The notes under the pieces are model-generated. The model had not been told where the DNA came from and did not search any database. It was given only the letters and a program-made list of their open reading frames with translations. Below, in pieces: positions 1,584 to 9,270 of a stretch of DNA of 32,166 nucleotides. Source of the DNA: Gammaproteobacteria bacterium (GTDB lineage Bacteria; Pseudomonadota; Gammaproteobacteria; GCF-002020875); the NCBI GenBank assembly GCA_013349825.1, contig DUYW01000019.1, forward strand, positions 1 to 32,166, written 5' to 3'. Positions within the stretch are counted from its first letter, which is position 1. The number at the start of each line of letters is the position of its first letter. Made by a program: the position numbers and the translations under genes.

Positions 1584-1600
1584 TTGGCACAATAATTGTA
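1584..1600 (+). promoter_or_regulatory. sigma-54-type (-24/-12) promoter candidate
   Basis: The sequence TTGGCACAATAATTGTA carries the -24 element TTGGCAC. Exactly 10 bases after the GG comes GT within TTGTA, where the consensus has GC (TTGCA). Spacing is right, with one mismatch in the -12 element. It lies about 60 bases upstream of the lipoprotein gene that heads the FlgO-like cluster. The flgOP genes of Vibrio depend on the sigma-54 flagellar hierarchy, which fits; here this is inference from sequence only. Confidence 0.5.
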
Positions 1601-1658
1601 GCTAAGTAATTGTGTGGAATAAGAATGTCAGAAAACAGACGCTCAGGAATAACTAAAG

Positions 1659-2051
1659 ATGGTCAAGAGAATGGACGGTCAAAAGCGAACAGGTATAAAA
1701 ACAGCGATCTCCGTAGTGCTTATTGCACTGCTCAGTGCGGGTTGTGGTTCGTTAAGTAGAACCTTACCTATGCTTCAAGCAGCATCGTATTCACAGGATA
1801 GGGCAGGGCAGAGTGCCATGCAGAGTAGTGACTACTACTGCCCGACGTGTCAGGCGGAACCCTTGATTGAATATGTGGATTTAGAGGTCGCTGAATGTAT
1901 CAAGCAGATTAAGAAGATGCCGTATCAACCAGGGTGTAGTGGAGGTAGCTGTGGTGACTATCCGGTCTCTGTACGTGCTGAAGGGGTCGGAAGTCAGTGC
2001 AAATCACAACCAACTGTTGAAGGTGTGCAGGTCGTAAAGGGGCAACAATGA
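1659..2051 (+). CDS. Cys-rich lipoprotein, unknown function
   Basis: A 130-residue protein not recognised as a member of a named family. After a basic N-terminus there is a hydrophobic stretch ending in a lipobox (LLSAGC, Cys about residue 29), so it is predicted to be a lipid-anchored envelope protein. The mature part has clustered cysteines: YCPTC, an isolated Cys, GCSGGSC and QC, enough for disulfides or metal binding. The start at 1659 is supported by AGGA about 9 bases upstream; an in-frame ATG at 1671 is an alternative. Its last 4 bases overlap the next gene (ATGA), suggesting translational coupling to the FlgO-like protein. The position recalls FlgP, the lipoprotein partner of FlgO in Vibrio, but I see no sequence support for calling it FlgP. 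Confidence 0.7.
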   Translation: MVKRMDGQKRTGIKTAISVVLIALLSAGCGSLSRTLPMLQAASYSQDRAGQSAMQSSDYYCPTCQAEPLIEYVDLEVAECIKQIKKMPYQPGCSGGSCGDYPVSVRAEGVGSQCKSQPTVEGVQVVKGQQ

Positions 2052-2716
2052 AAAATTTACAGTTAAAAACAGTATTGATTGCAGGTCTCTGTTTCGTGAC
2101 TGAGGTGAGTGCGGCAACATTCTGGAGTAGCCTGGGGTTTAACGGAGATGTGGTGTCACCGCAGCATACGATCACCACAGAGGCAGAGATGCCCGCCTAT
2201 TCAAAGCGGATGAAACAGATCACCAATAGCTTGGCCAATCAGCTAAAGGATAACCACCACAAACTCAGAATGGATGGTAATAGTGTGGTGGTAGCCTCTA
2301 TCGTTGACCTCGATAACCCTAAAGAGACCAACCGAATCGGGCGCTCATTGAGCAGTGGCCTGGTCCATGAATTACAGACACGTGGATACGACACCATTGA
2401 TTTCCATCTGATGAAGATGTTGCAGGTGACGGATGAGGGTGACTTTGTGACCAGTAATGATGTCACCGAATTGCGCAATGATTTTGATATTACCTACATG
2501 TTGGCAGGAACCCTCTCAGAACATAGTGATGGTATGACGATCACCATGCGTCTTACGGATTGGGAGACAAGCGTTGTGGTCTCGACTGCACAGGCCTTTA
2601 TTACAACCGATGAATACTTTGGACTGATGTCAGATATGGAGATCAGTCGGCCTGTGGTCAAGGTGATTCGACACAATGTGCCGATGCCAGATCAACGGGT
2701 CATGAAGATACGTTAA
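2048..2716 (+). CDS. FlgO-family protein, exported (non-lipidated)
   Basis: A 222-residue protein with a signal peptide (hydrophobic residues 8-20, likely cleavage after EVSA) and a FlgO-type domain at about residues 55-190. Characteristic stretches are VVVASIVDLDN, IGRSLSSGLVHELQTRGY, TELRNDFDITYMLAGTLS and the closing VVVSTAQAFI. FlgO in Vibrio cholerae is an outer-membrane lipoprotein needed for motility and attachment. This copy has no lipobox: the only Cys near the N-terminus (GLCF) lies inside the hydrophobic core without the required spacing, so it may be periplasmic. It starts 4 bases before the end of the preceding lipoprotein gene. The next gene is a clear paralogue. Family assignment is good; function in motility is inferred. 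Confidence 0.8.
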   Translation: MKNLQLKTVLIAGLCFVTEVSAATFWSSLGFNGDVVSPQHTITTEAEMPAYSKRMKQITNSLANQLKDNHHKLRMDGNSVVVASIVDLDNPKETNRIGRSLSSGLVHELQTRGYDTIDFHLMKMLQVTDEGDFVTSNDVTELRNDFDITYMLAGTLSEHSDGMTITMRLTDWETSVVVSTAQAFITTDEYFGLMSDMEISRPVVKVIRHNVPMPDQRVMKIR

Positions 2717-2736
2717 AGGAAAAGGTGGATCAGAAA

Positions 2737-3450
2737 ATGAAGAAGAGAATCCAGAATATCGTAGTGTTGCCTCTGATGGCGGTGCTGCTCACGGGGTGTA
2801 GTGGTATATCCGGTGTACCGATGTTTCAGTCGAAAAGCCTGAAATATCAGGTCGTGCAACCTGAGGTGAATCCGGGGCAGATTAATGAATATACACAGTA
2901 TTTGGCAGAGCAAATATCCCTCAACCGGGATACCTATAACGTCAGTAACAACCCGGTTGCGATTACCTCATTCGTCAATTTGGAGAACCTGAAACATACC
3001 AATAAGCTTGGTGAGTTGCTGGCGGACAACATGATTCACGAAATGCAGATTCGGGGATTCAAGGTAACCGATTTTAAATCGATGCCTGCCATCCAGATCA
3101 GTGAGTTGGGAGATTTTATCCGTAGTCGTGAAGTGAAAGAGTTGCGGAGTCATCACAATATTAATTTGGTGTTATCGGGTACCTATACCAACCATCAAAG
3201 CGGTGTGATTGTGAATGCGAGAATGATTGATATTGGTAGCGGAATGGTGGTCTCTACGGCACAAACCAATATTCCTAAAGAGATTGCGACAGCTATTTTT
3301 GGAAACTACAACCCGCAGGAGTGGGCGCTTGCAAGACAAGGCGTCAATGTGGATAACCAGATCCAGCAGGCCAAGAAAAAACAGATCAAAAAGAGGAAAC
3401 AGAGGAGTCAGATCTGCTTTGAGAATGGCGGTTGTATTCGTGGTCGTTAA
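2737..3450 (+). CDS. flgO: FlgO-family outer-membrane lipoprotein
   Basis: A 237-residue lipoprotein with a lipobox (LLTGC, Cys about residue 20) followed by a FlgO domain at about residues 50-195 (VAITSFVNLEN, LGELLADNMIHEMQIRGF, VKELRSHHNINLVLSGTY, MVVSTAQTNI). It aligns residue for residue with the preceding gene, so the two arose by tandem duplication or serve as a pair. The C-terminus is strongly basic (KKKQIKKRKQR) with two cysteines in the last 12 residues, a feature the first copy lacks. I chose the ATG at 2737 because AGGTGG lies 8 bases upstream; an upstream in-frame GTG at 2725 is possible. The gap to the preceding gene is 20 bases. FlgO proteins act in the outer membrane near the flagellar basal body; that role here is inferred. 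Confidence 0.82.
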   Translation: MKKRIQNIVVLPLMAVLLTGCSGISGVPMFQSKSLKYQVVQPEVNPGQINEYTQYLAEQISLNRDTYNVSNNPVAITSFVNLENLKHTNKLGELLADNMIHEMQIRGFKVTDFKSMPAIQISELGDFIRSREVKELRSHHNINLVLSGTYTNHQSGVIVNARMIDIGSGMVVSTAQTNIPKEIATAIFGNYNPQEWALARQGVNVDNQIQQAKKKQIKKRKQRSQICFENGGCIRGR

Positions 3451-3482
3451 TCAACAATAGCCACCTTTATGGGGTTTGGATT

Positions 3483-4484
3483 ATGAACGTGAAAATTGAG
3501 ACACTGCAGAAAAACATAGTACTGATCGGAATGCTGGTTGCGATGCAGCTGAGTGCAGCACCTATGGTACTGGTTGGAGAAGGTGACAATATTGCCAGTG
3601 GCTGGGCACTGACTGATTCAAGTGCAGGTTTGGTGACGACCTATGTTGGAACAGGTGGTGGATCAGAAGTGGGTCTTTATGCAGATGATGCGGCCAGGAG
3701 TACCAATAATGTAATTCTGGATACCACAGCGATGACAGCCAAAACGGATAGCTTTTTGATCAACAATAATAGTAATAGTAATCTTTTTTCAGTGGGACAG
3801 AATGGAGCGACCTCAATCAATTCAGTGACCGATTTTGTGAATGGCACTGGAGCAGTCAGTATTGGTAATGTGACTGCAGGAGATATTAGTTTGGTGACCA
3901 GTAGCACCAGTCAGATTACTGTTGGAGATACCAATACATTAGTACAAGGTGTGACTACCGATATTGTAGGCACCACAACCAATATCAATACTGATAATAG
4001 TGTGGCAAGGGCAACCAATATTGGTAATGATAATGTCGGCAGTACAACCAATATCATTGGGGTAACTAACATCAATGCAACTACGGCCGCTACAACAAAT
4101 TTAGGTACCGGTACGGGTGCAGTAAATGTAGGGAACACCACAGGAGCTACTGTAGTCAACGGTAATGCAGTTACGCTCCAAAGTGGTATGAAATCCCTGG
4201 TGGTCGATAGTACCGGTACTTCTATTACAGGGGGGTTAATTGTTGACGGCTTGAGCCTGTCAGGTGCAACCAATGGGGCGATCAATCTGACAGTTAATAA
4301 CCCAACAACCGGTATTGCACATGGCTTGGTGGTACAAAATGATCAAACAATACTCTCTGGAGGTGTAAACAGTACCTATATTACTCTGGACGAAAAGGGG
4401 GCCAGTTTTGCCCACCCTATAACAGGTGCTCCCAGCCGTGTAATGGGGGTTGCAGATGGTGTAGATCCAATGGATGCGGGTTAA
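3483..4484 (+). CDS. trimeric autotransporter passenger fragment (frameshifted)
   Basis: A 333-residue frame starting with a signal peptide (hydrophobic residues 10-22, cleavage near LSAAP). It continues as a low-complexity passenger rich in Asn, Thr, Gly and Val, with short repeats such as TTNI, NIG and GTGAV-NVGN that look like stacked beta-strands of a trimeric adhesin head. It ends in GVADGVDPMDAG followed by a stop. In intact YadA-type proteins a neck motif of the form TDAVN-QL continues here; the expected continuation VNRSQLDIAYGG is present one frame over. Removing one G from the GGG at 4478-4480 joins both frames into a 415-residue protein. As written, this fragment lacks its membrane anchor and could not be displayed on the surface. 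It follows the FlgO lipoprotein gene by 32 bases. Confidence 0.75.
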   Translation: MNVKIETLQKNIVLIGMLVAMQLSAAPMVLVGEGDNIASGWALTDSSAGLVTTYVGTGGGSEVGLYADDAARSTNNVILDTTAMTAKTDSFLINNNSNSNLFSVGQNGATSINSVTDFVNGTGAVSIGNVTAGDISLVTSSTSQITVGDTNTLVQGVTTDIVGTTTNINTDNSVARATNIGNDNVGSTTNIIGVTNINATTAATTNLGTGTGAVNVGNTTGATVVNGNAVTLQSGMKSLVVDSTGTSITGGLIVDGLSLSGATNGAINLTVNNPTTGIAHGLVVQNDQTILSGGVNSTYITLDEKGASFAHPITGAPSRVMGVADGVDPMDAG

Positions 4485-4731
4485 CCGCAGTCAGCTCGAT
4501 ATCGCCTATGGAGGGGTTGCTTCAGTGGCAGCATTGGCAGCACTTCCACCTCCAGCCCCGAATCGTCACTTTTCGATTGGTATGGGTACTAGCTACTATG
4601 AAGGAGAAACAGGTGTGGCGGTCGGGATGAAGGGTAGTTTGACAGATACTACGCAGTTCAGTCTTGGAACCAGTTGGAATAGTGCAGCAGGGACGCCATT
4701 GGTCAACGGTGGTGTGAGCCTCAGTTGGTAG
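4474..4731 (+). CDS. YadA-type membrane anchor fragment
   Basis: An 85-residue frame holding the C-terminal half of a trimeric autotransporter: a short stalk (VNRSQLDIAYGGVASVAALAAL), a Pro-rich turn, then four amphipathic beta-strands (HFSIGMGTSYY, TGVAVGMKGSL, TQFSLGTSW, VNGGVSLSW) ending in an aromatic residue, as in YadA anchors, which trimerise into a 12-strand barrel. An ATG at 4474 overlaps the end of the passenger frame, so translation could restart, but the product would have no signal peptide. I therefore read it as the 3' part of one gene broken by a single-base insertion. Real frameshift, sequencing error and recoding are all possible. Confidence 0.75.
   Translation: MRVNRSQLDIAYGGVASVAALAALPPPAPNRHFSIGMGTSYYEGETGVAVGMKGSLTDTTQFSLGTSWNSAAGTPLVNGGVSLSW
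4476..4484 (+). other. frameshift point in trimeric autotransporter gene
   Basis: The bases GATGCGGGTTAACCGC read D-A-G-stop in the upstream frame. Dropping one G gives D-A-V-N-R, which restores the conserved neck of YadA-type adhesins. The G run is only three long, so it is not an obvious slippage tract. Confidence 0.7.
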
Positions 4732-4769
4732 CTTCGGTTGAGTGAATAATGAGTCGATAGGGAGATGAT

Positions 4770-5123
4770 ATGGATCTGTTATCAATAGCGGGCTTTGCAC
4801 TGAACCTCTACTCTCGTTTGGATGAGCAGGAGTTGAAAAATAGAGAGTCAAGAGGTGTTGTGGAGCAATCGATGGCCCGATCAAACTCTACTGCAGCCTA
4901 TCCTGCACGAAAGATTCCGGTCAGTGAATTATTAGAGGGAAAGGTCAGGCGCAATAGTGACCCCATCACAGCTCATAAAAAAAGCAGGCAGGGGGAAAAG
5001 AGTCCCAAAAAAATAGTGAAACCTGCATTGATTGTGGCAAAAAAAAGACATCAATCTGAATCTGGTGTAGATGGTAACGGGCACTATTTTCTTCGCAGAA
5101 AACCGGTAATTTCACCAAATTAA
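4770..5123 (+). CDS. hypothetical small basic protein
   Basis: A 117-residue protein of unknown family. It begins with a short hydrophobic segment (LLSIAGFALNLYSRL, residues 3-17), too short and too early for certainty as a membrane anchor. A polar middle follows, then a Lys/Arg-rich second half (HKKSRQGEKSPKK, KKRHQ). The start is well supported by GGAG 5 bases before the ATG. It sits 38 bases after the autotransporter and 14 bases before the TolC-family start, so it is probably co-translated with them. Reading frame and spacing argue for a real gene; nothing in the sequence reveals its job. A cytoplasmic or inner-face accessory to export is one possibility, without direct support. Confidence 0.55.
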   Translation: MDLLSIAGFALNLYSRLDEQELKNRESRGVVEQSMARSNSTAAYPARKIPVSELLEGKVRRNSDPITAHKKSRQGEKSPKKIVKPALIVAKKRHQSESGVDGNGHYFLRRKPVISPN

Positions 5124-5137
5124 GGGTGGTGAGTAAG

Positions 5138-7150
5138 ATGAATGATAGAAATGTAAAATTAATAGGTGCTCGTCGGCACGTAGCAAAGAGGGTTGTAGTG
5201 ACCGCTCTGGTTGCGGTACTTTCAACTCCGATGGCAAGCTATGCTCACTCATTGTCACAAGCGATTCATTTGGCGTTGCAAAATAATCCGGAAATTAAGT
5301 CAGCCTACCATGGTGTGGGTATTGCAGATGAACAGCTGGGGCAAGCGGTCGCAGGATGGCTTCCAACGCTAGATGTGAGTCTGGATTCAGGCCGTGAATA
5401 CAGAGATAAACCGACCTCTGATTCTACAAAGATGATGAAAAAAAGTACAACAGTCACCTTAACACAGCCACTTTTTGATGGAGGAGCGGCAGCAGCTGCG
5501 GTAGATCGTAGCGGCCAAATGTTAGAGGTTTCTACCGTTCAGCTGGATGAAATCCGCATCTCTGTGGCATTGCAGACGATTGAGTCCTGGTATGAAATTT
5601 ATCGCCTTCAACGGGTGATCCGATGGACTGTAGAGAACGTCAATCAGCATAACAAGCTGTTTATGCAGATTCAGGAGAAAGTAGAGGCTGGGGGGGCTGG
5701 AAAATCAGAGCTGGTTGCAGCAGAAACTCCGTTGCTGGCTGCACAATCAGCACTCATTTCTGCCAGAGGTGAGTATAGAGATGCGTTGGCACGATACACC
5801 AAGGTGGTTGGCTTGGCGCCATCTGAAGTATTGAACAAGGCAATGGACGTCCCCGACTGGGGGGTGCCCGCTGAATATACACAAGCGATAGAAGTGTTAT
5901 TGGTAAATAATCCGATTTTGAAGAGTGCGAGAGCGAACCTGAATGCAATCAAGGCGGATTTTGAGGGTACCCGTGCCGGTTTGTTACCAACTCTTGATTT
6001 TGAACTCAAAGGGGGGCGTGACCTCAATAATGGAGGTAATGAGGGGCAAGAGGACTATTATACGGCTCTGCTGAAAATGAAATATAACCTGTTTCGGGGG
6101 GGGGCAGATCAATCTCGCAGAAGAGAGATGGCGAAGAGCGTGGTTGATAGTCAGGAGCAGTTGAATATTGCACGCCACAGCATGGAAGAGCAGTTAAAAC
6201 TCTACTGGAATGGGTTGGAAGTTACTCGAGAGTTATTGATGACGAGCAAAAAGCAGTATCAAATCGCACATGAAAACGCACAATCGGTTCAAGAGCAGTT
6301 CAAGCTGGGTGAAGCCGATGTAATGACGATTATGGCGGCAGATGATGCGCTACTGCAGGCCAAGTTGGCAGTATTGCAAGATGACACCAGTGTAAGGCTT
6401 GGAGTCTATCGGGTGATTGCTCATCTTGGCGTACTGCTCAATTATTTGGATATTCCCGAAGAGATACTGAATAGTTTTGAGACGGAAGAGGATGCTGGAG
6501 ATCTGGTCTTTATTGACCGGGTACTGGCTGCACCGGGTAAGGTTGCAGACACGATTATGGGGATCGGCAGTTCTGTTGAAACCGCTATAGTCACTGATGG
6601 TGGGGGGGCTGGACCGGAGTTCGGCACTGTGGTGACAGAGACGGTGGCTACAGCCTCAGAGGCTTCAGTTTCCACTACATCACCAGACTTGGCAATGACT
6701 CAGAAAACATCAAGTTGGAATGTGGCTTATGACCAGATGAAAGATGCAGGCTGGGTAGTGTTGAATGCAGTGGATGAGGCAAGAGGCCGGAAACCGGTTG
6801 TGGTAGACAGTCGAGTGGTGCAGACAGAAGTGGCAATGCTCGCTCCGCCCCCGGTTAAACCTACTCTGGTATTGTCACAAGGTAATACGCAGATGGCCCC
6901 AAGGCAGAAACCGAAAGAGCGTGGCGGGCAATTGAATCGTCATGAGCAGCGCAGGTTGTTATTGGCGAGCAGAATGAACCGCTCCAGCCATAACGGTTCC
7001 AGTTATAACCAGAAGTTGAAGAACCGGAGTCAGCTGTTAAGTCAGAGAAAGGGTGAGCTGGGAAAACAGCTCAGGCGCTTTAACCGCAAACTGGATAAGC
7101 TGAACCTCAACTCCAGTAAGACGGGAAACTGGATTATCCGTAGTAATTAG
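5138..7150 (+). CDS. TolC-family outer-membrane channel with long C-terminal tail
   Basis: A 670-residue protein with a signal peptide (hydrophobic VVVTALVAVLSTPMASYA) and the TolC/LapE-type outer membrane efflux domain at about residues 35-440: an N-terminal repeat (LSQAIHLALQNNPEIKSAYHG) and a second repeat starting near residue 250 (AIEVLLVNNPILKSARANL), with typical strand motifs (VTLTQPLFDGG, MKYNLFRGG). TolC-type proteins form the trimeric outer-membrane exit duct for type I secretion or drug efflux. Members are usually about 420-490 residues; this one has about 230 extra residues, Val/Ala/Pro-rich first and strongly basic at the end, with a possible coiled coil (QLLSQRKGELGKQLRRFNRK). 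I start at ATG 5138 (GGTGAG upstream); GTGs at 5126 and 5129 are alternatives. A type I secretion ABC transporter gene lies convergent immediately downstream, a likely partner. Confidence 0.88.
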   Translation: MNDRNVKLIGARRHVAKRVVVTALVAVLSTPMASYAHSLSQAIHLALQNNPEIKSAYHGVGIADEQLGQAVAGWLPTLDVSLDSGREYRDKPTSDSTKMMKKSTTVTLTQPLFDGGAAAAAVDRSGQMLEVSTVQLDEIRISVALQTIESWYEIYRLQRVIRWTVENVNQHNKLFMQIQEKVEAGGAGKSELVAAETPLLAAQSALISARGEYRDALARYTKVVGLAPSEVLNKAMDVPDWGVPAEYTQAIEVLLVNNPILKSARANLNAIKADFEGTRAGLLPTLDFELKGGRDLNNGGNEGQEDYYTALLKMKYNLFRGGADQSRRREMAKSVVDSQEQLNIARHSMEEQLKLYWNGLEVTRELLMTSKKQYQIAHENAQSVQEQFKLGEADVMTIMAADDALLQAKLAVLQDDTSVRLGVYRVIAHLGVLLNYLDIPEEILNSFETEEDAGDLVFIDRVLAAPGKVADTIMGIGSSVETAIVTDGGGAGPEFGTVVTETVATASEASVSTTSPDLAMTQKTSSWNVAYDQMKDAGWVVLNAVDEARGRKPVVVDSRVVQTEVAMLAPPPVKPTLVLSQGNTQMAPRQKPKERGGQLNRHEQRRLLLASRMNRSSHNGSSYNQKLKNRSQLLSQRKGELGKQLRRFNRKLDKLNLNSSKTGNWIIRSN

Positions 7151-7182: not shown

Positions 7183-9270
7183 TTATGTTGTGTTTTGCAG
7201 GACTTTACCCTGGTTTAACGCCTCTAGAACCCGGTCTCTCGGGCCATCTCCGACAATTTTACCCTGATCCAGAATAATGAGTCGGTCCGCCAGAGAGAGC
7301 AGAGAGCTGCGGTGGGTGACCAATATCAGGGTTCTCCCCTTCAGAAATGGGGTGAAACGCTCCTTCCACTGCTGTTCAGCACTGTTATCCATCGAGCTGG
7401 TGGGTTCATCGAGCAGGATGATCGGTGGTTTTTGGAGTAGTGCACGCGCCATCGCGACCGCTTGCCGTTGACCGCCAGAGAGCCCCTCTCCCCGTTCCCC
7501 AACCTCCAGATCATAGCCTTTGGGGTGTTGCCGAACAAAGGTATCTACACCGGCCAGTTGAGAGGCATCCAATAACTCCTCATCACTCGCCTGTGGGTTG
7601 CCAAGTTTGATGTTATCTCGAAGTGTGCCCCGGAACAGGACAATCTCTTGTGAAACATAACCGATTGAGCGCCGTAGTTGTGCAGGATCCAGTTGATTTA
7701 AGTGGGTATGGTCGATCAGCAGGCTGCCTGACTGTGGCTGGTAGAGGCCGAGCAGCAATTTTTGTAATGTACTTTTCCCCGACCCAATACGACCAATAAT
7801 GGCAACCCGTTCACCCGGTTGGATGGTGGCATTGAGATCATGCAGAGCATGATCTTCCTGATTAGGATATTGAAAGCTGACTTTCCGTAGCTCGATAGCC
7901 CCTTGTAGTGGAGGACGGTGTAGAAAATGGGTCGTGACCGGGCGCTCGATCGGTTTTTGCATTACCCCATGAAGTGCGCGTAGAGCAACCATGGATTGTC
8001 GATAACGAATCAGTAGCGCGGCGATTCCTGCCAAAGGGGCCAGTGCACGACCGGCGAGAATGGTACAGGCAATCAAGGCACCAATACTCATCTCACCTGC
8101 TGAAATCTGGTGAACACCAAATACCACAATGGCGATGGTTGCAGCTTGGTGGGTGAAGGTTGTCAGATTGATTGCTAGGGTCGACCAGAGCTTGCTTTTC
8201 ATCCCCGACTTGGCAAGCTTCTCGACATAGCCTTCCCATTTCTGCTGCATGACCCCCTCGGCATTTTCACTTTTGATCGTTTCGGCGGCAGAGATCGCCT
8301 CGACCAGAATGGCGTGTTTTTGTGTAGCCTCTTTAAAGGTTTCACTCACTGCGCGATGGAGCGGGATCTGCAGCAGCAGGGCAGAGATGAGCACAATAGG
8401 AATGGCTGTCATTGGAATAAAGACAATGGGGCCGCCAATCATCCAGATGACAGCAAGAAAGATGACAAGAAATGGCAAGTCAATCAGAGTTGTGAGTGAG
8501 GCAGAGGTGAAGAAATCACGAAGCCCCTCAAATTCACGCATATGGTTTGCGATGGCACCGGAGGCCGGGTCACGTGCCTCCATTCGGGTACCCAAGAGTT
8601 GTTCGAAGATGGTGGCTGATAGAGCTAAATCAGCACGTTTTCCAGCCACATCAATAAAGTAGGCACGTAGCGTACGCAGCAGAAAATCAAATCCTGCAAC
8701 CAGTAGCGCGCCAATTGCCAACACCCATAAGGTCTCCATTGCATTGTTGGGAACCACTCGGTCATAGACGTTCATCACGAAAAGAGGGCTGGCCAGGGTA
8801 AACAGATTGACCATAAAAGAGGCAAATATACTTTCGCTGTAGATGGGCCACCCCTTGAGGATGGTTTTCCAGAACCAGAGCTTTCCCTGCCCCCCTTCAG
8901 CTGGAGGCAGTGCACCATTAATGATCAGTGTTTGACCATTGTACTGTTGCTTGAGTTTTTTGAGTTCAATGGACTCCTCTTGACCCGCATTATCGAGGAT
9001 ATAGGCAGTTTTTCCATCAATTTTGCTGAGCACTACAGCCTTCTTCTCCTTTAGAAAGAGTAGTGCCGGCAGCTGTGTGGTTGATAGCTTCTTTAGCGGA
9101 AGATTGTCAATATTGCCGTTGATACCGGATCGCTGTAGCGCTCGAACGGTCAGTGCTGGATTCAGTAAGCCACGCTTCAGAGGAATGCCTGCCAGCAAGG
9201 ATTCCGCAGCTAGAGGGAAGCCGTGTAATTTGCAGAGCTGCAAAAGAGGAGGAAGAAGCGGATCAGACAT
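7183..9270 (-). CDS. type I secretion ABC transporter, LapB-like
   Basis: A 695-residue inner-membrane exporter. Residues 1-130 form a C39-like domain; no catalytic His is seen at the usual place (KKAVVLSKI), so it is probably a non-cleaving substrate-docking domain, as in HlyB and LapB. Residues about 150-430 are the six-helix membrane domain (SPLFVMNVYDRVVPNNAMET is typical of the LapB group). The C-terminal ATPase has Walker A GRIGSGKST (about residue 493), signature LSGGQRQAVAMARALL (about 597), Walker B IILLDEPTS (about 618) and the H-loop LVTHR. Such transporters export large RTX adhesins with a HlyD-type adaptor and a TolC-type channel. The channel gene is its convergent neighbour, 32 bases away end to end; adaptor and substrate genes are not in the window. 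The ribosome-binding site before ATG 9270 is weak. Confidence 0.93.
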   Translation of the reverse strand: MSDPLLPPLLQLCKLHGFPLAAESLLAGIPLKRGLLNPALTVRALQRSGINGNIDNLPLKKLSTTQLPALLFLKEKKAVVLSKIDGKTAYILDNAGQEESIELKKLKQQYNGQTLIINGALPPAEGGQGKLWFWKTILKGWPIYSESIFASFMVNLFTLASPLFVMNVYDRVVPNNAMETLWVLAIGALLVAGFDFLLRTLRAYFIDVAGKRADLALSATIFEQLLGTRMEARDPASGAIANHMREFEGLRDFFTSASLTTLIDLPFLVIFLAVIWMIGGPIVFIPMTAIPIVLISALLLQIPLHRAVSETFKEATQKHAILVEAISAAETIKSENAEGVMQQKWEGYVEKLAKSGMKSKLWSTLAINLTTFTHQAATIAIVVFGVHQISAGEMSIGALIACTILAGRALAPLAGIAALLIRYRQSMVALRALHGVMQKPIERPVTTHFLHRPPLQGAIELRKVSFQYPNQEDHALHDLNATIQPGERVAIIGRIGSGKSTLQKLLLGLYQPQSGSLLIDHTHLNQLDPAQLRRSIGYVSQEIVLFRGTLRDNIKLGNPQASDEELLDASQLAGVDTFVRQHPKGYDLEVGERGEGLSGGQRQAVAMARALLQKPPIILLDEPTSSMDNSAEQQWKERFTPFLKGRTLILVTHRSSLLSLADRLIILDQGKIVGDGPRDRVLEALNQGKVLQNTT

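Follow-up and report, generated by a model that had tools for sequence, protein, structure and literature searches.

A candidate flagellum-co-regulated operon combining flagellar-disk genes with adhesin and type I export genes in a gammaproteobacterium

Why would genes for FlgO-type flagellar proteins lie on one strand with genes for a trimeric adhesin and a TolC-type channel? This question is raised by a stretch of 32,166 nucleotides (the window) that forms the start of contig C19 in the 2.87-Mb draft genome of a marine gammaproteobacterium (GCA_013349825.1). A sequence-only reading had proposed that six genes in this window form an undescribed envelope operon, which could be a flagellum-coordinated attachment or export device. 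Here, we favor, with a probability of about 0.6, the explanation that the locus is a flagellum-co-regulated operon adding adhesin and type I export parts to a flagellar-disk module.

Gene content and layout of the locus

The features of the locus, with window coordinates, strand, and the evidence used for each, are as follows.

1-1185, +, flagellin-family protein, 5′ part lost at the contig start (PF00700 Flagellin_C, 7.6e-19)
1195-1506, +, flgM, anti-sigma-28 factor (PF04316, 4.1e-10; TIGR03824, 44.4 bits, cut-off 40.75)
1585-1600, +, sigma-54-like -24/-12 promoter TGGCACAATAATTGTA, TGGCAC-N5-TTGTA (10/11 consensus positions)
1659-2051, +, Cys-rich outer-membrane lipoprotein of a conserved unnamed family preceding FlgO (lipobox LSAGC; alignment; position before FlgO)
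2048-2716, +, FlgO-family protein a, without a lipobox (PF17680, 1e-32, 113.2 bits, cut-off 22.6)
2725-3450, +, FlgO-family protein b, lipobox LLTGC, alternative ATG at 2737 (PF17680, 1.1e-40, 139 bits, cut-off 22.6)
3483-4484, +, trimeric autotransporter adhesin, signal peptide and beta-rich passenger to the neck (translation; 46% identity to the end of an intact 946-aa paralog)
4474-4731, +, YadA-type anchor in another reading frame (PF03895, 1.5e-9, 38.2 bits, cut-off 22.7)
4770-5123, +, unknown basic protein (family blocks MDFLSxAGFAxNxxS, N-terminal, and ESGVDNxGxYFxRR, C-terminal)
5126-7150, +, type I secretion TolC with a C-terminal tail of about 234 residues (TIGR01844, 228.6 bits, cut-off 225.15)
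7183-9270, -, LapB/LssB-type type I secretion ABC transporter (TIGR03375, 920 bits, cut-off 693)

The same-strand run from 1659 to 7150 is real, and its spacing ranges from a 4-base overlap to a 38-base gap. The strand and spacing of the six genes described earlier were correct, but the adhesin corresponds to two ORFs rather than to one gene. The flagellin-flgM pair upstream of the run was confirmed by the PF00700, PF04316, and TIGR03824 matches, the lipoprotein and two FlgO proteins by the lipobox LSAGC and PF17680, and the TolC-like channel with its tail by TIGR01844, and the protein encoded at 4770 to 5123, called unknown in the sequence-only reading, indeed has no match in Pfam or NCBIfam. 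We also observed a gene absent from that reading, the LapB/LssB-type gene, which is convergent with the TolC gene and encodes the ABC transporter partner of TolC at the locus. Neither an HlyD-type partner nor a giant type I substrate was found among the ORFs of the window. As seen in a promoter and terminator scan, internal sigma-70-like promoters were fewer than expected by chance and terminator-like sites occurred in about the chance number, and a sigma-28 promoter scan returned background-level matches only. The underlying sequences are draft contigs; lipoboxes and signal peptides were judged by eye, and the promoters are consensus matches only.

The FlgO module and its sigma-54-like promoter

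FlgO, FlgP, and FlgT have been placed in the H-ring or basal disk and are sigma-54 controlled in Vibrio (PMC6504787), and Arcobacter has FlgO-FlgO′ operons and 5 to 6 concentric rings (PMC5758724, PMC9321776). FlgO-family protein b of the window matched the FlgO chains of flagellar ring structures 9yds and 9yfg (phmmer, 4.8e-28 to the 9yds FlgO), entries that also contain FlgP chains, and its predicted model (mean pLDDT, 76.6) belongs to the LpoB/PelC/TolB/CsgG fold group. The lipoprotein family exhibits invariant cysteines in an alignment of 15 members; its structure prediction gave no usable fold (mean pLDDT, 53.8), and a profile search identified no match in the PDB. In this genome, which encodes five FlgO proteins of the window type and one divergent FlgO, the lipoprotein is found ahead of FlgO at three loci, C19 and C71, where two FlgO genes follow, and C43. 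It also directly precedes FlgO in all 10 of the closest named FlgO loci (Gammaproteobacteria and Campylobacterota), and weak matches were found in Aquificota and at two Deltaproteobacteria/Geobacter loci; the ten close members fed the profile, and the independent ones are C43 and the weak matches. Balneatrix and Pokkaliibacter carry the genes as lipoprotein-FlgO-FlgP, together with a divergent FlgT gene. The flagellar context of the host is given by the presence of FlhA in the genome and of flgM directly upstream of the run. Overall, the lipoprotein-FlgO-FlgO′ set is a widespread flagellar outer-membrane module of an already known kind. The description of the operon as undescribed holds for its second half only, as both FlgO-FlgO′ operons and disks of FlgO and FlgP have been reported (PMC9321776, PMC5758724, PMC6504787).

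The locus resembles the Vibrio flgO, flgP, and flgT genes in its FlgO domain, the vicinity of flgM, a sigma-54-type promoter, and the presence of FlgP in the same genome; however, it has two FlgO copies behind a Cys-rich lipoprotein, FlgP lies on another contig, and an adhesin and TolC follow. As in Arcobacter flgO-flgO′, a single operon holds FlgO paralogs in tandem (PMC9321776, PMC5758724); the locus differs in belonging to a gammaproteobacterium with an FlgP-like protein, five FlgO proteins plus the divergent one, and a block of trimeric adhesin and TolC genes. Helicobacter FapH, a lipoprotein encoded beside flgP (PMC11756786), was considered as a relative of the lipoprotein, and we claim no link.

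Several further observations concern FlgO loci. Two LuxR-family response regulators with 39% mutual identity each adjoin a lipoprotein-FlgO locus (L007, 8221-8892; L009, 312-980), and the one on C71 has a sigma-54-like site. The sixth, divergent FlgO, on C204 (1-1541), is preceded by an apparent shortened end of the gene that is FlgO's partner in other Gammaproteobacteria, and an open transposase-like ORF adjoins this region. Lipoprotein-FlgO pairs also occur in records of Campylobacterota that bear the names Sulfurimonas, Campylobacterales, and Helicobacteraceae (L048 to L054), at odds with the statement that within this phylum FlgO is restricted to Arcobacter (PMC9321776).

The sigma-54-like promoter that had been proposed ahead of the operon was recovered as the top match in the 32-kb window, 74 bases upstream of the lipoprotein start. 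Sites scoring at least 9/11 numbered 28 in 147 kb of this genome, made up of stretches picked for carrying such genes and including many other genes too, and 5 of the 28 were intergenic, correctly stranded, and within 150 bases of a gene. These five sites precede the window operon, the pair of FlgP and small-protein genes, the TolC paralog of C113, the LapB paralog of C67, and the LuxR-type response regulator beside the FlgO pair of C71. The position of the site is kept in congeners for two of the five, namely, the FlgP-small protein pair in G002 and LapB in G004. The other two lipoprotein-FlgO copies have no such site before them; the C71 site faces the response regulator, and C43 has none. 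An RpoN gene is present in this genome, and H-ring genes are sigma-54/FlrC class III genes in Vibrio (PMC6504787). From the promoter-like sequence, we infer that the operon may be a member of the flagellar sigma-54 regulon, and its two halves are likely coexpressed.

The adhesin, the small protein, and the tailed TolC

The passenger ORF of the adhesin spans 3432 to 4484, with a likely start at the ATG at 3483, and stops just before the neck and anchor. Passenger and anchor do not form one polypeptide, being encoded by two ORFs in different frames that overlap at 4474 to 4484. The relatives are single ORFs, of 946 amino acids in this genome (C38) and 362 amino acids in congener G002. Because the intact C38 paralog aligns to both ORFs back to back, with its residues 808 to 863 matching the end of the passenger ORF and 864 to 925 the start of the anchor ORF, we interpret the pair as one adhesin gene whose frame is disrupted in the assembly, by a mutation or an assembly error at 4474 to 4484. 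An anchor ORF acting as an independent protein with its own start was rejected, as the intact paralog reads through both pieces, and programmed frameshifting found no support, with no relative showing the same break. The YadA anchor and passenger of the proposed trimeric adhesin are therefore present, but not as the intact single gene seen in the C38 and G002 relatives, and the adhesin may be inactive in this strain. The YadA anchor, the beta-rich passenger, and the intact paralogs in the genus resemble YadA-type trimeric autotransporters; what sets the gene apart in this assembly is the loss of frame between passenger and anchor. Intact trimeric adhesin genes were also observed at L117 (4125-7647) and L118 (9321-11029), each after a gene for a similar protein of 190 to 226 amino acids; the 226-amino-acid protein has no Pfam match, and large sensor-like genes lie nearby.

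Among 369 genomes searched, the small protein was found in none outside the genus. Both C21 of this genome and G002 encode paralogs with the same N- and C-terminal blocks directly behind an FlgP-like gene, and the product of the C21 FlgP-like gene matches the FlgP chains of solved rings. At both loci (L107, 8868-9869; L106, 9081-10062), a sigma-54-like site lies about 60 bases upstream of the FlgP-like gene and small-protein paralog, in both species. FlhA is present in this genome (G000), G002, and G004; all three have the small-protein family, and two of them, G000 and G004, have FlgO. Both FlgO and the small-protein family are missing from the three congeners that lack FlhA. This codistribution of FlhA, FlgO, and the small protein, over six genomes only, is suggestive of a tie to the flagellum.

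The tail of TolC carries an SWxxAYxQMKxAGWxVLNAVDE block and a basic end. The ortholog in the sister species G004 is 62% identical over residues 23 to 672, and between the two species, the OEP part is 70% identical and the tail 42% identical. As judged from these alignments, the C-terminal tail appears to be real and conserved, most of it weakly so (42%). The tail is not specific to the flagellum, because the type I TolC of G001, a genome without flagellar genes and with no FlhA, carries part of the tail motif.

Other type I export genes were observed elsewhere in this genome. C67 (54-13388) harbors a complete Lap-type cluster, with LapD (EAL/GGDEF/LapD_MoxY_N), LapG (Peptidase_C93), LapB, HlyD, and the start of a giant protein, as well as a 1,196-amino-acid protein in which cadherin-like repeats are fused to a TolC domain; this fusion is also present in G004 (L097, 8307-11381). 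On C113 (445-8227), a gene for a 2,002-amino-acid protein containing Laminin_G_3, cadherin-like, and Calx-beta domains lies ahead of a TolC paralog; this paralog ends in an acidic EP-repeat tail and has a sigma-54-like site of its own.

G004 shares the order of the window for the end of an adhesin, the small protein (45% identity), and a TolC that bears the same tail; an inserted chemoreceptor gene comes next and then LapB (88%), which is convergent as in the window. The G004 contig ends inside the adhesin, upstream of the small protein. G004 carries lipoprotein-FlgO-FlgO genes; orthologs of the FlgO genes of the window locus were not found in this 84% complete genome. The complete six-gene order was seen once, and TolC or an adhesin was next to FlgO at 0 of 58 other FlgO loci (41 named and 17 class level). 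Conservation of gene order, on which the sequence-only reading had staked its proposal, was found in two parts, lipoprotein-FlgO across phyla and adhesin end-small protein-TolC-LapB in one sister species. The adhesin-small protein-TolC half is lineage specific, but not random.

Explanations for the combined locus

The flagellum-co-regulated operon that we favor builds on the observed gene content and order, a promoter-like site, partial conservation, and co-occurrence with flagella, from which co-transcription, location at the disk, the export substrate, and the biological purpose are inferred. Sigma-54 flagellar control would drive the whole operon. The Cys-rich lipoprotein, FlgO, and FlgO′ would add subunits to the outer-membrane basal disk or H-ring around the flagellum, and the adhesin, the small flagellar-disk-associated protein, and the tailed TolC would supply surface attachment, with TolC as the putative outer channel for the neighboring LapB-type type I exporter. 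Flagellum and attachment parts would then be made together, so that a swimming cell might already be equipped to stick. The flagellar link is strengthened because of the sigma-54-like promoter, the adjoining flgM, the restriction of FlgO to flagellated congeners, and the small-protein paralogs behind FlgP, and the attachment or export reading is strengthened because LapB adjoins TolC. The small-protein paralogs behind FlgP and the placement of the intergenic sigma-54-like sites are two independent links of both halves to the flagellum. Both parts of the proposed flagellum-coordinated attachment or export device thus gained evidence, but the adhesin frame is broken here. Joint control of flagella and of the export of Lap-type adhesins by a sigma-54 activator has precedent: in Pseudomonas, FleQ binds lapA, tolC, and the gene for the LapA-exporter ATPase (PMC6120874), and in Vibrio, the adhesin FrhA is flagellum regulated (PMC6504787). 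The type I TolC, the adjoining LapB, and this type of regulation liken the locus to LapA-type export (LapB/LapC/LapE) under FleQ and to Vibrio FrhA (PMC6120874, PMC6504787); in contrast, TolC here lies inside an FlgO operon and has a long tail, and LapC and the giant substrate are on C67 and not at the locus.

The two halves could instead be neighbors only, the adhesin and type I export block having arrived or been rearranged behind a disk operon, with any shared transcription being without functional meaning. We regard this as unlikely, although it deserves serious weight: no TolC or adhesin gene adjoins FlgO at the 41 named and 17 class-level loci or at the remaining FlgO copies of this genome, and the YadA paralogs lie far from FlgO. 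Nevertheless, the family of the block's small protein is elsewhere encoded behind FlgP, separate sigma-54-like sites precede the TolC and LapB paralogs at other loci, and the gaps inside the run are just 32 and 38 bases. At the other extreme, the products might form one physical device, in which the tail of TolC and the small protein dock the channel to the FlgO/FlgP disk and the adhesin is exported at the flagellar pole. The conservation of the tail and the small protein in the sister species and the linkage of the small-protein family to FlgP at one locus and to TolC at the other would agree with such a device, but part of the tail motif also occurs in the TolC of G001, which lacks FlhA, and the tail shows weak conservation over most of its length (42%), making such a device improbable in our judgment. 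We likewise treat as a long shot the related proposal that the tailed TolC and the small protein couple a type I channel, and the trimeric adhesin, to the flagellar disk, with adhesin export taking place at the base of the flagellum and each FlgO paralog forming a separate concentric ring.

The FlgO proteins might also act outside the flagellum, as a PelC/CsgG-like outer-membrane ring that aids adhesin or polymer export. The model of FlgO-family protein b does match the PelC, LpoB, TolB, and CsgG folds, but its sequence kinship is with the flagellar FlgO rings (E value, 5e-28), and none of the three congeners lacking FlhA has FlgO. Trimeric autotransporters are not known to need a PelC/CsgG-like ring, which also counts against this explanation, and we consider it very improbable.

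Under the flagellum-co-regulated operon, gene order, the type of promoter, and a small-protein family common to both connect the disk genes with those for attachment and export. Two unnamed families become candidate disk components, namely, the Cys-rich lipoprotein encoded ahead of FlgO and the small protein with its links to FlgP and TolC, and the multiple FlgO paralogs of one genome offer a test of whether there is one FlgO per concentric disk ring. The idea that swimming cells preload their stickiness becomes testable at the level of single genes.
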